Virus record (IMG/VR): IMGVR_UViG_3300046543_000784
Span: 1 to 33,059 of that record
Length of the DNA: 33,059 bases
Reading direction: 5' to 3' (one strand)
Source: a virus
Made by a program: the position numbers and the translations under genes. This document shows positions 26,075 through 32,139 of the stretch, one piece after another (position 1 is the stretch's first letter; each line of letters begins with the position of its first letter). The notes under the pieces were generated by a model. The model was not told the origin of the DNA. It saw nothing but the letters and a program-made list of their open reading frames with translations, and searched no databases.

Positions 26075-27649
26075 GTGCCTTGGCGCGGCCCGAGCTACGC
26101 AGGCGAGTTTCCGTCTCTCGGGTGGGAGGTCGGGGCATGGATCCAAGAATTCTGCGTCATCCCCGACGGCGATCACCTCGGCGAGCCGTACAAGCTCACC
26201 GACGAGATGTGGACCTTCCTCGTCTGGCACTACCGGCTCAAGGCCGGCGCCACGGCCGAGGACTGGGCCGCAGCCTGGGCCTACCGCCGCTCGCAGCTTG
26301 TCCGCCCGCAGAAGTGGGGCAAGGGCCCGCTGAGCGCCGCGCAGGTCTGCGCTGAGGCAGTCGGTCCGGTCCGCTTCGCCGGCTGGGATGCCGCCGGGGA
26401 GCCGGTCGGCCAGCCGTGGGCCACCCCGTGGATCCAGATCACGGCGACCAGCGAGGACCAGACGGACAACGTCTACCGCGCGCTCCAGCCGATGATCGAG
26501 GAGGGTCCGCTCGCCGACGCCATCCCGGACACCGGGATCACGAGGATCAACGTCCCGGGCGGTGGCCTGATCGAGCCGGTCACGTCCTCGAAAAACGCCC
26601 GTCTCGGCCAGCGCATCACCTTCAGCGTGCAGGACGAGACGCACTGCTGGCTTCAGGCGAACGGCGGCTGGGCGATCGCCGCGACACAGCGCCGGAACCT
26701 GTCCGGCGTCGGCGGCCGGTCGGTCGAGACCACGAACGCGTGGGACCCCTCCGAGCAGTCCGTGGCTCAGCGCACGTCGGAGTCGACGGCCCAGGACATC
26801 TACCGCGACCACCGCATGGCGCCGCCGGTGCCGCTGACGAACCGCGCGGAGCGGCGCCGGGCCCTGAGGATCGCCTACGGCGACTCGGCCAAGCGCCCCG
26901 GCGGCTGGGTCAGCATCGACCGTATCGACGGCGAGCTGCTGGAGATCGCCGAGAAGGACGAGGCTCAGGCCGAGCGCTTCTATCTCAACCGCATCGTGGC
27001 CGGCACCGGCTCGTGGATCGACCGCGACGAGTGGGACGCGCTGGCCGCGCCCCGCCAGCTCGACCGGAAGCCGCGCGTGGTGCTCGGCTTCGACGGCTCC
27101 GAGGTGGACGACTGGACCGGGATCCGCGCCGAGACGATGGACGGCTACCAGTTCACGCCGACTTACGGCCCGGACGCCCGGCCGTGCTACTGGAACGCGG
27201 CGGACTGGGGCGGCCGGATGCCGTACTCCGAGGTCAACGCGGCCATGGATCACGTGATGCGCCACTACGACGTGGTCCGTGCCTACTGCGACCCGCGGTA
27301 CTGGGAGACCGAGATCGACAACTGGGCCGCGGCATACGGCGCGGAACGGGTCGTGCGCTGGTTCACCCATCGCGACGTCCCGATGCACGCGGCGGCCGAA
27401 CGGTTGCTGACCGACGTCACCAAGCAGGACACCAACTTCCGGCACGACGGGTGCAAGACCACGGCGATCCACGTCGCCAACGCCCGCAAGGCGGCCCGGC
27501 CCAAGGACCGCTACGTCCTGAAGAAAGCCTCGACCGCTCAGAAGATCGACCTGGCGATGTGCTCGATCCTCGCCCATGAAGCCGCCGGTGACGTCATCGC
27601 CGCCGGCCTGGCACAGCCGCGCAAGCGCGGCCGGATCGTCGTCATGTGA
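26075..27649 (+). CDS. terL: Terminase large subunit
   Basis: 524 residues from GTG 26075. The ATPase half shows a Walker-A-like RPQKWGKGPLSA (77-88) and Walker B ITFSVQDETH (Asp187, Glu188). The nuclease half has the RNase-H-type acidic set: VVLGFDGSEVDD (Asp340), RAYCDP (Asp406) and QKIDLAM (Asp492). It powers DNA translocation into the prohead and cuts concatemers at cos, probably with the HNH protein upstream. Length is normal for the family. AAGGAGG for the portal gene begins at its last codon. Confidence 0.9.
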   Translation: MPWRGPSYAGEFPSLGWEVGAWIQEFCVIPDGDHLGEPYKLTDEMWTFLVWHYRLKAGATAEDWAAAWAYRRSQLVRPQKWGKGPLSAAQVCAEAVGPVRFAGWDAAGEPVGQPWATPWIQITATSEDQTDNVYRALQPMIEEGPLADAIPDTGITRINVPGGGLIEPVTSSKNARLGQRITFSVQDETHCWLQANGGWAIAATQRRNLSGVGGRSVETTNAWDPSEQSVAQRTSESTAQDIYRDHRMAPPVPLTNRAERRRALRIAYGDSAKRPGGWVSIDRIDGELLEIAEKDEAQAERFYLNRIVAGTGSWIDRDEWDALAAPRQLDRKPRVVLGFDGSEVDDWTGIRAETMDGYQFTPTYGPDARPCYWNAADWGGRMPYSEVNAAMDHVMRHYDVVRAYCDPRYWETEIDNWAAAYGAERVVRWFTHRDVPMHAAAERLLTDVTKQDTNFRHDGCKTTAIHVANARKAARPKDRYVLKKASTAQKIDLAMCSILAHEAAGDVIAAGLAQPRKRGRIVVM

Positions 27650-27661
27650 AGGAGGTGGACC

Positions 27662-29086
27662 ATGGCCGTGAACCTGGACCCCGACCAGTGGCTCACCCGC
27701 CTGACCAAGGCTCATGACTCCGACTTGCCGGAGCTGAAGCGGCTGGACGGCTACTACGAGGGCAGGCAGACCCTGGCGTACATGGCGCCGGAGCTGATGC
27801 GGGAGCTGAACCAGCGCCTTCGCCAGCTGGTCATCAACTGGCCCCGGCTGTGCGTCGACGCCATCGAGGAGCGGCTCGACGTCGAGGGCTTTCGCTTCTC
27901 CGATGACGCCGAGGCCGACTCCAAGCTGTGGGGCATCTGGCAGGCGAACGACCTCGACGAGGAGTCGCAACTCGGCCACGTTGACGCGCTGGCCCTTCGC
28001 CGCTCGTTCGTCATCGTCGGCGCGAACGAGGCTGACGAGCAGAACCCGCTCATCACCGTCGAGTCGCCGCTGGAGGTGTACGCCGAGCGCGACCCGCGTA
28101 CCCGCGAAGTCGTGGCCTCGGTGAAGCGCTGGGAAGAGGACGTCCCGAACGCCGAGAGCATCAAGCACGCCACCCTCTACCTGCCCGGTCTCACAACGTG
28201 GTACATCAAGAAGGACGGGACCTACGTTCCCGATCCGGACATCCCGCCGGACCGGACCGGTCTTGACAGGCCGCCGGTCGAGCCGCTGGTGAACCGGGCC
28301 CGGGTGCGTGACCGCGGCGGCGTCTCGGAGCTGGCGGACATCATCCCGGTGTCCGACGCCCTGTGCAAGATCGCCACCGACATGATGGTCAGCGCGGAGT
28401 ACCACGCGATTCCGCGCCGCTGGGCTGCCGGGATGACGGAGGAGGACTTCGTCGGCCCCGACGGCACGAAGACCTCCACTCTCTCCGCGCGCATCGGCGC
28501 CATGTGGCTGAGCGAGAACGTGGAGACGAAGTTCGGGCAGTTCGCCGAGGCCGACCTGAAGAACTTCCACGACACGATCGACACGCTGGCTCGCGTCGTC
28601 GGCGGCCTGACCGGTCTGCCGCCGCACTTCCTCGGCTACGTCGGCGGCGAGCCGGTCAGCGCCGACGCCATCCGCGCATCCGAAGCGCGGCTCATCAAGC
28701 GAGCCGAGCGGCGCCAGCGCGCTTTCGGCGGGTCGTGGGAGCGCGTGATGCGCCTGGCGATGCAGATCCGCGACGGCTCCGTCCCGGCGAACGCCGCGCG
28801 GCTGGAGACCATCTGGCGCGACGCCTCCACGCCGACGCTCGCTCAGACGTCCGATGCTGTGGTGAAGCTGCACGCCGAGAACCTGCTCCCGGACGAGATG
28901 GCCTGGGAGATGATGGGCTTCTCGCAGACGCAGATCGCCCGCATGCTCGATATGCAGCAGCGGCAGGCCGACCGCGGCCTGGGTGCCGAGTTCTCCGCGC
29001 TGATCGGCGCACAGCGGCAGCCAGGTGTGCCGGGCCCCGAGGTCCCCGTCCCGACAGCGCCCGTTCCAATCCCGCAGATTCCGTGA
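27662..29086 (+). CDS. Portal protein, SPP1 gp6-like
   Basis: 474 residues with AAGGAGG before the ATG. The N-terminal DLPELKRLDGYYEGRQTLAY and INWPRLCVDAIEERLDVEGF are characteristic of SPP1-gp6-type portals, as are the central PLEVYAERDPRTREVVASVK strands. The later GGLTGLPPHFLGYVGGEPVS and AIRASEARLIKRAERRQRAF correspond to the stem and channel helices. A Pro-rich tail follows. The protein forms the ring at the capsid vertex through which DNA passes. The next gene starts four bases before its stop. Confidence 0.9.
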   Translation: MAVNLDPDQWLTRLTKAHDSDLPELKRLDGYYEGRQTLAYMAPELMRELNQRLRQLVINWPRLCVDAIEERLDVEGFRFSDDAEADSKLWGIWQANDLDEESQLGHVDALALRRSFVIVGANEADEQNPLITVESPLEVYAERDPRTREVVASVKRWEEDVPNAESIKHATLYLPGLTTWYIKKDGTYVPDPDIPPDRTGLDRPPVEPLVNRARVRDRGGVSELADIIPVSDALCKIATDMMVSAEYHAIPRRWAAGMTEEDFVGPDGTKTSTLSARIGAMWLSENVETKFGQFAEADLKNFHDTIDTLARVVGGLTGLPPHFLGYVGGEPVSADAIRASEARLIKRAERRQRAFGGSWERVMRLAMQIRDGSVPANAARLETIWRDASTPTLAQTSDAVVKLHAENLLPDEMAWEMMGFSQTQIARMLDMQQRQADRGLGAEFSALIGAQRQPGVPGPEVPVPTAPVPIPQIP

Positions 29087-30033
29087 CCGACCTGCGCGGC
29101 GTCGCTCGGGCGTGGCGCCAGCATCAGGCGCTGATCGTCCGCTCCGCTACGGACCGCACCGCGGCGGCGTGGGCCGGGCTGGACTCCGCGGACCTGTCCG
29201 GCTCGTGGGCCGCATCCGTCGGTCCGGCGATGGTCCGGACCCTCGCCGCGGCACAGCGACTCACCACTGCCGGTGCCAGCCAGTACGTCTCAGCCGCCGT
29301 GGATGCCCAGAACGGCGATCCGGCGGCCGATGGCACGATCAACGCCTCGGCGTTCTCCGGCACCGCGGCCGACGGCCGGTCGCTGGCCGGGCTGCTGTAC
29401 ACGCCGGTGCTGAAGACGAAGACCGCGATCGCCGCCGGCCTGTCCGTGCCTGAGGCCCTGGCCTCTGGCGCCGCCGAGCTGTCGATGCTCGTCGGTACCG
29501 AGGTCGCCGACGCCGGCCGGGAGGCGGCCGGCGCGGCGATGACCGCGACCCGCTCCGTCCACGGCTACGTCCGCATGGTCTCCGGCTCGGCCTGCTCACG
29601 CTGCATCATCCTGGCCGGCAAGCACTACAGGTGGAACGCGAATTTCCAGCGCCACCCGCACTGCGGATGTACGGCCATCCCGACCGTCGAGAACCTCCCG
29701 GGCCATCTGACGACCGATCCGCACGCCTTTTTCGATCATCTCTCGCCCGCGCAGCAGGATGCCCGGTTCGGCAAGGCCGACGCCCAGGCGATCCGCGACG
29801 GCGCGGACATCAACCAGGTCGTCAATGCCCGGCGCGGGCTGTACCGGACGCAGGTCTTCGGCAAGGACGTGCAGGCCACCACGGAGGGCATGACCCGGCG
29901 CGGTCTGGCCGGGCAGCGCCTGGCCGGGTCCACCAAGGGCCTGCGTCTGACCGTCGGCCAGATCTACGCCGACGCCGCCGGGGACCGCGACCTGACCATC
30001 AGTCTCCTTCGCCGCTACGGCTACCTGGTCTGA
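29083..30033 (+). CDS. MuF-like minor head protein
   Basis: 316 residues from GTG 29083. A helical N-terminal half is followed by ACSRCIILAGKHYRW (Cys171, Cys174) and FQRHPHCGC (Cys194, Cys196), a Cys/His cluster of the MuF-type head morphogenesis domain of actinophages. The C-terminal part (210-316) is charged and contains no further enzyme motif that I recognise. Such proteins sit inside the capsid with the portal. Position between portal and scaffold is canonical. Confidence 0.85.
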   Translation: MTDLRGVARAWRQHQALIVRSATDRTAAAWAGLDSADLSGSWAASVGPAMVRTLAAAQRLTTAGASQYVSAAVDAQNGDPAADGTINASAFSGTAADGRSLAGLLYTPVLKTKTAIAAGLSVPEALASGAAELSMLVGTEVADAGREAAGAAMTATRSVHGYVRMVSGSACSRCIILAGKHYRWNANFQRHPHCGCTAIPTVENLPGHLTTDPHAFFDHLSPAQQDARFGKADAQAIRDGADINQVVNARRGLYRTQVFGKDVQATTEGMTRRGLAGQRLAGSTKGLRLTVGQIYADAAGDRDLTISLLRRYGYLV

Positions 30034-30086: not shown

Positions 30087-30650
30087 ATGAACATCCTTCC
30101 GAAGCCGTGGCGGTTCCAGCTGGACCGGCACGACGACCCGCAGCCCGACCCGACGCCCGATCCGGACCCCGCTGCCGACCCGGCGCCGGAACCTGAGGAC
30201 AAGCCCCTCGGCCCGGCGGGCGAGAAGGCGCTCAACGCCATGAAGGAGCGTGCCCGCGCCGCCGAGGCTGCCCGCAAGGCAGCCGAGGACAAGGTCCGCG
30301 AGTTCGAGGACCGCGACAAGTCCGAGCTGGAGAAGGCACAGGAGACCGCCGCAAGGGCGACCGCCGAAGCCGCCGCCGCACGGACCGAGCTGGCCCGCAC
30401 TCGCATCCTCGCCGAGCACGGCCTGTCTGAGGCCGACGCGGAGTTCCTGCCCGCAGGCTCCGAGGACGAGATGCGTGCAGCTGCCTCCAGGCTGGCTGGC
30501 CGCCTCGCTGCCGCGGCGCCACCCAAGGGCCCGCGCCCCGACCCGTCGCAGGGATCCGGCCGCCCGGTCGCCCCGACCGACTACCGCACCGCGCCCAAGG
30601 GCGACGTACAGGCCTACCTGCGCGAGCACGGCGTGCGCTCCTACAAGTGA
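30087..30650 (+). CDS. Scaffolding protein
   Basis: 187 residues, ATG 30087. A Pro/Asp-rich start (15-40) precedes a long, highly charged coiled coil (ALNAMKERARAAEAARKAAE through RILAEHG, about 48-125), then a short linker and a basic C-terminal end (AYLREHGVRSYK) of the kind that binds capsid protein. Composition, length and location directly before the capsid gene identify it. It is followed, with a four-base overlap, by the Prp-like protease gene, so it is a candidate substrate. Confidence 0.85.
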   Translation: MNILPKPWRFQLDRHDDPQPDPTPDPDPAADPAPEPEDKPLGPAGEKALNAMKERARAAEAARKAAEDKVREFEDRDKSELEKAQETAARATAEAAAARTELARTRILAEHGLSEADAEFLPAGSEDEMRAAASRLAGRLAAAAPPKGPRPDPSQGSGRPVAPTDYRTAPKGDVQAYLREHGVRSYK

Positions 30651-30835
30651 TCAGCATCCACGCACGGCTCGGCGACGGGCTGACGCGCATCGAGGTGACG
30701 GGTCACGAGGAGCACGCCGAGGACGGCCGCGTGTGCGCCGCCATCTCGGCGATCACACAGACCGCCTTGCTCGGCCTGGCCGCGGTCGCCGAGCAACACC
30801 CCGACCTCGTCACCATCGACATCACAGAGGACTGA
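30647..30835 (+). CDS. Prp-like cysteine protease, small form
   Basis: 62 residues from GTG 30647. VTGHEEHAEDGRVCAAISAI (18-37) matches the catalytic region of Prp (ribosomal-processing cysteine protease, DUF464), where GHAxH and VCA carry the His and Cys of the active site; here His20 and Cys30. The rest (LLGLAAVAEQHPDLVTIDI) fits the family's second helix and strand. Staphylococcus Prp (about 106 residues) trims ribosomal protein L27 and also cleaves phage 80alpha scaffold and capsid proteins. Lying between scaffold and capsid genes, this protein is a good candidate prohead protease. It is shorter than known Prp, so activity is unproven. Confidence 0.7.
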   Translation: MISIHARLGDGLTRIEVTGHEEHAEDGRVCAAISAITQTALLGLAAVAEQHPDLVTIDITED

Positions 30836-30837
30836 CC

Positions 30838-32139
30838 ATGAAGACTCTGAGCCGTTTCCGGTTCGACCTGGGCCGCCACGACCTGCGTGGTGTGCTGCCC
30901 GCCGCCCTCCAGCCGATCATGCAGAACGGGATCCTGGACCGGATCTTCCGGGACGCCCTGCTGCCGCAGTTCCTGTTCCCGGCGACCGCGTCCGTCGAGC
31001 CGATCGCGCAGGGCATCGGCGCCACGGTGACGTTCACCCGCGACGGCCTGCTGGCGGTGGCGACCACGCCCACCACCGGCTCGGACCCGTCCCCGCAGAC
31101 GCTGAGCTACGAGCAGTGGTCGCTGTCCATGGAGCAGTACAGCAACACCATGGACACCAACCGGCTGACCGCCCGCGCGACGCTGGCCGACACCTTCGTC
31201 CGCAACGTGCAGAAGCTCGGCCTGAACGCCGGCCAGACGCTGAACCAGCTGGCGAGGAACAAGCTCTACGCGGCCTACGGCGGCGGCCTGTCCTGGGTGG
31301 TCACCCCTCAGGGCTCGGCTTCGACCACCTGCGTCGTCAAGAGCGCGGCCGGTTTCGACACGGTCCTGGTCAACGGCGTCCCGACGGCCGTCTCGGGTAC
31401 GAACCCGCTGACCATCACCCTCGCTGGCGTGGCGAACACCGTGGTCGCGTGCAACCTGGCCACCAACACCCTGACGCTGGGCACTGCGGTGACGCAGGCC
31501 GTCGGCGACACTGCGGTCGCGGCCACCTCCCCGTACTCGCTGCGGGCCGGCGCCCGCGCCTCCCGCTACGCGCTGACCGGCGCGGACGTGATGACCGCGG
31601 CGCTGGCCCGCTCGGCCGTTCAGCGGCTGCGGACCATGAACGTCCCGACCATCGGCGGCAACTACGTCTGCCACATGGACCCGACCACCGAGGGCGAACT
31701 CTTCGCGGACGCCGACTTCAAGCAGGCGTACCAGGGCCGCGGCGACTCGACCGTGTTCGGCGAGATGTCCATCGGTACCTTCCTGGGCGTCGACTGGGTC
31801 CGGAACAACGAGTCCCCGTCGACCACCGACGGCGGCAGCTCCGGCACCCTGACCGTGCACCGCCCGATCTTCATGGGCGCCGACGCCCTGATGGCCGGCC
31901 CGTTCGAGGGCATCGCCGACCTGCTCGCCGACACCGGCGTCGAAGAGGTGCCGATGATCTCGATGATCGGCCCGGCGAACGGCGTCGAAGTCGCGATGAT
32001 CATCCGTCCGCCCCAGGACCGGCTCCAGCAGATCATCTCGGCGACCTGGTCCTGGGTCGGCGACTTCGCGGTGCCTTCGGACACCACCACCGGTGACTCG
32101 GCCCGCTTCAAGCGCGCCGTGGTCATCGAGCACGCCTGA
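30838..32139 (+). CDS. Major capsid protein
   Basis: 433 residues, ATG 30838 with GAGGA seven bases upstream. The N-terminal arm (1-30) is basic and amphipathic, as in proteins that interact with scaffold. The body resembles the N4-gp56-like major capsid family: SYEQWSLSMEQYSNTMDTNR in the centre, AALARSAVQRLRTMNVPTIG, and GTFLGVDWVRNNESP. An inserted beta-rich Thr/Val domain (about 155-235) may be a surface domain. Position after scaffold and before head-tail connector agrees. Confidence 0.85.
   Translation: MKTLSRFRFDLGRHDLRGVLPAALQPIMQNGILDRIFRDALLPQFLFPATASVEPIAQGIGATVTFTRDGLLAVATTPTTGSDPSPQTLSYEQWSLSMEQYSNTMDTNRLTARATLADTFVRNVQKLGLNAGQTLNQLARNKLYAAYGGGLSWVVTPQGSASTTCVVKSAAGFDTVLVNGVPTAVSGTNPLTITLAGVANTVVACNLATNTLTLGTAVTQAVGDTAVAATSPYSLRAGARASRYALTGADVMTAALARSAVQRLRTMNVPTIGGNYVCHMDPTTEGELFADADFKQAYQGRGDSTVFGEMSIGTFLGVDWVRNNESPSTTDGGSSGTLTVHRPIFMGADALMAGPFEGIADLLADTGVEEVPMISMIGPANGVEVAMIIRPPQDRLQQIISATWSWVGDFAVPSDTTTGDSARFKRAVVIEHA

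Follow-up and report, generated by a model that had tools for sequence, protein, structure and literature searches.

Staphylococci trim a ribosomal protein, L27, with the protease Prp. In Staphylococcus phage 80alpha, the host Prp removes 14 residues from the scaffold protein and 13 from the capsid protein (PMC5744158), and the initial annotation of the DNA described here had pointed to this host-dependent processing (PMC5744158, PMC9405229). Cleavage of capsid or scaffold is dispensable for 80alpha while the scaffold N-terminus is essential, and a common chaperone has been proposed (PMC5744158). The two 80alpha sites are ENKLKFNLQFF'A and QKLKLNLQHF'A (here and below, the apostrophe marks the cleaved bond); P1 stacks on the catalytic His of Prp, and Asp31 is essential in the S. 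aureus enzyme, the D31A mutant being inactive (PMC9405229). In Streptococcus phage Cp-1, a protease trims the major head protein with the loss of 48 residues, according to the account of Martin et al. 1998 given in PMC12445089. By family match, this protease (MEROPS C108) is probably orf13 (L186:3806-4120; 104 aa), which scores 18.5 bits with Pfam Prp, below the cut-off of 27. A 48-residue loss from the Cp-1 head protein (L186:411-1508) puts His at P1 (INH'ATV). Phage-encoded Prp-family head proteases are therefore already known (since Cp-1), and gp6 of Streptomyces phage Kromp carries the label 'protease'. What appears to be new is a half-size Prp, a defined site on both scaffold and capsid, and a protease-site package in hosts that lack Prp. 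A literature search indicates that these are undescribed; it found no publication on actinophage Prps or on either Kromp gp6 or A0A6J5LQL6, and no substrate site reported for the latter two.

The window, meaning the whole stretch of 33,059 nucleotides that was analysed (IMG/VR record IMGVR_UViG_3300046543_000784), carries head genes on the plus strand. The terminase large subunit (26075..27649; phrog_19179, E 2.6e-90), an SPP1 gp6-like portal protein (27662..29086; PF05133, 169.8 bits) and a MuF/VG15-like minor head protein (29083..30033; PF25310 VG15, 29.2 bits, cut-off 26) are followed by a 187-aa head scaffolding protein (30087..30650; phrog_1793, E 3.4e-19) and a 433-aa major capsid protein (30838..32139; phrog_1357, E 5.5e-30), the latter with a profile match to NCBIfam TIGR04387 (71.5 bits, cut-off 60). 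Between these two lies the gene for a putative 62-aa cysteine protease of the Prp family (30647..30835), hereafter mini-Prp, with the sequence VISIHARLGDGLTRIEVTGHEEHAEDGRVCAAISAITQTALLGLAAVAEQHPDLVTIDITED. Its core reads ...G19-H20-E-E-H23-A-E-D-G-R-V29-C30-A-A..., with His20 (30704-30706) and Cys30 (30734-30736) as the predicted catalytic residues. The GTG start codon and the scaffold stop (30648-30650) overlap as GTGA, and 2 nt separate the mini-Prp stop codon from the capsid ATG at 30838. Values of dN/dS of about 0.17-0.27 against eight relatives indicate purifying selection. Translation of the open reading frame agrees with the initial annotation, which had reported a GHxxH...VCAA signature with His20 and Cys30 in a 62-residue product. 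The position directly between scaffold and capsid, which it had also reported, is borne out by PHROGs and TIGR04387, and mini-Prp lies there in every relative whose neighbouring genes could be read.

Assignment to the Prp family held up in profile searches. Pfam Peptidase_Prp (PF04327) matches mini-Prp at 33.9 bits (gathering cut-off 27; E 3.8e-8), spanning only profile positions 1-57 of 90, and is the sole Pfam family to match; the divergent relatives L013, L074 and L078 likewise exceed the PF04327 cut-off. The phrog_4478 profile ('peptidase') also matches, and the best three matches in a PDB sequence search are all Prps, each weak (E 0.015-0.18). No Pfam match to an HK97-type prohead serine protease was found for mini-Prp or for the other head genes tested. 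We aligned 64 sequences: 62 mini-Prps (one of them from the window), a divergent 73-aa form from locus L013 and one full-length phage Prp. Identity falls to 40% in this set, in which G19, H20, V29, C30, A31 and A32 are invariant. By curated HMM and this conserved His/Cys pair, mini-Prp is a Prp-family (PF04327 / MEROPS C108) protein. It is not of the cellular, L27-processing type: against the NCBIfam equivalog PRK14553 mini-Prp reaches 23.5 bits at best (cut-off 133), and it lacks both the full length and the Asp31 of the cellular enzymes. In the alignment, mini-Prp has nothing that corresponds to Asp31 of S. aureus Prp (GxDxVCA). Its loop between His and Cys is shorter by 2 residues, and the closest acidic residue, D26, is variable.

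An AlphaFold2 model of mini-Prp (pLDDT 88.4, pTM 0.65) has strands at residues 3-9 and 12-18 and a helix at 27-50. Among viral models (BFVD), Foldseek gave one clear match, A0A6J5LQL6 (probability 1.0, TM 0.69, E 1.1e-3), a UniProt 'Cysteine protease Prp' that is similar in size (61 aa), 34% identical to mini-Prp, and known as an annotation only. Searching the PDB by fold and running VIA-align, both with the 62-residue model, returned weak, unrelated matches with no Prp among them, but a hairpin plus helix of 62 residues is too small for such searches to say much. For residues 44-60 of mini-Prp, the best-matching stretch of a full-length phage Prp is its very C-terminus in 8/13 cases. This suggests an internal deletion, mini-Prp being a full Prp minus about 35-45 internal residues rather than a simple truncation.

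One named relative is Kromp gp6 (AYD81607.1), an orthologue in the same position that is 74% identical to mini-Prp and is known from annotation only, with no substrate site described. The capsid protein is 49% identical to Kromp gp7, and the scaffold is homologous to Kromp gp5 by gene order and sequence. Scans of viral and bacterial genomes yielded 79 loci at which the flanking genes could be read; the collected loci contain 63 distinct mini-Prp sequences. Searching with the capsid protein brought in a further 34 Prp-bearing loci, for about 113 viral or prophage loci in all, some phages being counted twice because two collections contain them. Where a host is named, it is Streptomyces, Catenulispora, Nonomuraea, Sphaerimonospora or another actinobacterium. 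In a profile search, PF04327 was absent from 197/199 Streptomyces genomes. Each of five prophage-carrying genomes has exactly one PF04327 match, whose coordinates are those of the prophage locus. The L27 protein of those five genomes starts MAHKKGASS, with no cleavable N-terminal extension, and a role for mini-Prp in L27 processing is very unlikely in the hosts examined. Since these hosts lack Prp and their L27 needs no trimming, the phage's own proteins are the obvious substrates. The claim of the initial annotation that the phage carries its own, very short Prp is thus supported by the PF04327 score, the conserved His/Cys pair and the lack of Prp in the examined hosts.

Scaffold and capsid, otherwise unrelated proteins, begin with MNILPKPWRFQLDRHDD and MKTLSRFRFDLGRHDL, respectively, and have in common an N-terminal motif (W/F)-x-F-x-L-x-R-H-D, which we define to take in the related form x-W-F-x-L-x-R-H-D. 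The predicted scaffold site is W-R-F-Q-L-D-R-H'D (residues 8-16; 30108..30134, plus strand), with 15 N-terminal residues predicted to be removed; the predicted capsid site is F-R-F-D-L-G-R-H'D (residues 7-15; 30856..30882, plus strand), with 14 predicted to be removed. A six-frame search of the whole window finds the strict pattern twice, at these two N-termini. The same is true of the 48 kb of Kromp, where the scaffold has ...GWFQLTRHDD and the capsid ...SWFRLDRHDI. Across all loci (2.56 million six-frame codons) there are 294 strict matches, every one at a scaffold or capsid N-terminus and none on the minus strand. These counts rule out coincidence as the source of the motif.

The strict pattern is present in both proteins at 76/79 loci. 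The remaining three are L053 and its genome-collection twin L093, where the scripted start was out of frame (L053 was read by hand), and one locus with a contig-cut scaffold. At the 34 added loci, all 34 capsids carry the site or a close variant of it, and 29 scaffolds carry the site; four contigs end first and one scaffold has a variant (L176, WTFNLACFD). Where the site varies, it can vary in both proteins together: P2 is Leu instead of Arg in scaffold and capsid alike in mini-Prp phage L208, P1 is Phe in both proteins of L074, and P6 is Leu in both proteins of L169. Two other departures at capsid N-termini were seen. In L047, L048 and L087 the motif occurs in tandem (WFRLDRHD...WFDLGRHD). 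The divergent 73-aa mini-Prp of L013 (L013:108-329; GHQGSGDGGDGKVCAAV), which has a longer His-Cys loop, adjoins a capsid gene with an altered N-terminus (WLRVPFQRAAVASHD), possibly reflecting a different specificity; this contig ends before the scaffold.

Aligned to the 80alpha sites, the motif gives Phe at P6, Leu at P4, His at P1 and Asp at P1'. The two systems share a protease family, a His/Cys dyad, an N-terminal site common to scaffold and capsid, hydrophobic P6 and P4, and an aromatic P1 (F in 80alpha, H or F in mini-Prp phages), in keeping with the stacking on the catalytic His that has been reported for P1. The number of residues removed is also close (13-14 in 80alpha, 14-15 predicted here). 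The differences lie in the enzyme, which 80alpha takes from its host, where this protein of about 106 aa is the essential L27 protease, and which here is a 62-aa product of the phage head operon; in the site, FxLxRH'D here and LxLQxF'A in 80alpha; and in the hosts, since that of 80alpha has both Prp and a long L27 and those of the mini-Prp phages have neither. L27 sites have small residues at P1', unlike the Asp here, but F'D also occurs in L014, a phage with a full-length Prp. Cp-1 resembles the mini-Prp phages in having a phage-encoded Prp-family head protease and His at P1, but its orf13 sits away from the scaffold and capsid genes.

Taken together, we give a probability of roughly 80% to the reading that mini-Prp is a phage-borne cysteine protease dedicated to head assembly, trimming scaffold and capsid at their shared site. 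We infer catalytic activity, the exact bond and the timing as follows. Translationally coupled between scaffold and capsid, mini-Prp would be made along with the scaffold and would bind the hydrophobic N-terminal peptide on both proteins. His20 and Cys30 would then cut (W/F)-x-F-x-L-x-R-H'D, most likely at the His/Asp bond, shortening the scaffold by 15 residues and the capsid by 14. Self-association, or the scaffold or procapsid, may compensate for the central part of the fold that mini-Prp lacks. The N-terminal peptide may act in assembly before the protease removes it; given that cleavage is dispensable in 80alpha and the scaffold N-terminus essential, having the peptide may be more important than removing it.

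The absence of an Asp31 counterpart, the shorter loop and the loss of about 35-45 internal residues count against proteolysis. Mini-Prp could instead be catalytically dead, a binder or chaperone of the shared peptide that coordinates how scaffold and capsid fold or assemble together. The losses of Asp31 and the fold middle would suit such a protein, as would the 80alpha results, in which the scaffold N-terminus and not its cleavage is essential and a common chaperone was proposed (PMC5744158). However, a pure binder would not need His20 and Cys30, which are invariant across the 64 diverged sequences, and we regard a dead enzyme as improbable compared to an active head protease.

Relatives without the protease also lack the site. 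The N-terminal extension is absent from the capsid homologues of about 50 phages in which no Prp was detected (Komagataeibacter phage phiKX1, L178, L179, L182 and L219-L266; absence of Prp was judged from the DNA near the capsid gene). These capsids, which are 37-55% identical to the motif-bearing ones, begin with the conserved (L/F)PAxxQ that would follow the extension, and the predicted capsid site falls just before this start point. The scaffolds of L178, L179 and L182 are likewise without the motif. Of these phages, the 48 or so other than phiKX1, L178, L179 and L182 gave one motif match, an out-of-frame chance occurrence in L241; in the same scan, L208 proved to be the Prp-positive variant described above and L246 had too little upstream sequence.

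Other phages have a full-length Prp (phrog_4478), among them Oenococcus phage Krappator27, Dorea phage DO134P1 and L267-L278. As here, the Prp gene is in the head operon; unlike mini-Prp, the proteins are 95-118 aa long and include both the middle region and the Asp31 position. Their hosts are probably Firmicutes, which possess a Prp of their own. Each has one L27-like site common to scaffold and capsid, for example LNLQRFA/INLQRFA in Krappator27, FDLQMFA/FNLQMFA in L270, MWLQMFA/FDLQMFA in L276, ANLQVFA/LGLQVFA in L274 and MNLHLFD/FNIRLFD in L014. P2 is identical within the phage in 7/9 full-length-Prp phages (2.4 expected; permutation p 0.0014); a wider set of 14 phages, in which some variants had been chosen by hand, was left out of this statistic. 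A viral scan with the Oenococcus Prp as query gave no matches. Two further observations concern this group. In L268 (5001-6401), one reading frame of 466 aa joins a full-length Prp to the scaffold, with the L27-type site MNLQLFAD separating the two, apparently a self-processing protease-scaffold polyprotein. L27-like sites also occur at N-termini beyond scaffold and capsid, on a putative tail protein in L278 (+3927 from Prp), a MuF-like protein in L269 (-1832) and a portal-like protein in L273 (-2076).

These comparisons bear on whether the motif is an assembly signal unrelated to the protease, the two being paired by shared ancestry. The motif-bearing phages all belong to one capsid lineage, with the Prp-less capsids as its 37-55% identical relatives, so co-occurrence could stem from one ancestral gain. 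Yet the unrelated, Firmicutes-type Prp phages pair their protease with a site of another, L27-like kind, scaffold and capsid of one phage tend to have the same P2 residue, and the register and length of the motif match the 80alpha Prp site. We therefore consider an assembly signal unrelated to the protease to be quite unlikely.

The remaining candidate for head maturation cleavage is the upstream MuF/VG15-like protein, which would leave some other role to mini-Prp. Its Kromp counterpart, gp4, is labelled 'capsid maturation protease', and phrog_1522 ('head maturation protease') matches at E 3.2e-72, but the match is confined to positions 23-347 of this 591-position profile. Pfam finds VG15 and no protease family in this product, which has an invariant, metal-site-like CxxC...HxxCxC cluster and a mainly helical model of middling confidence (mean pLDDT 74.7) with no structure match in the PDB. 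We reject this protein as the protease, a role that has very little probability left to it, and consider it probably a MuF-like minor head protein with a propagated protease label.

A more specific form of the head-protease reading is that mini-Prp is a minimal, 62-residue protease with the middle deleted, activated as an oligomer or by the procapsid, acting on a new site, FxLxRH'D, and forming with it a portable package for Prp-less hosts. We favor this version by a modest degree. Protease and sites would arrive together with the phage, since its actinobacterial hosts lack both Prp and a long L27. If this is correct, the 80alpha case, in which one phage borrows a host enzyme, would widen to a self-contained phage system, present at more than 100 loci, whose known hosts are without the enzyme. 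The model makes an exact and cheap-to-test cleavage prediction for Kromp on Streptomyces lividans. A half-size Prp would also be a means to ask what the minimal catalytic unit of a drug-target family is, and the mini-Prp phages may bear on the 80alpha question of why one cleavable peptide is found on both scaffold and capsid.
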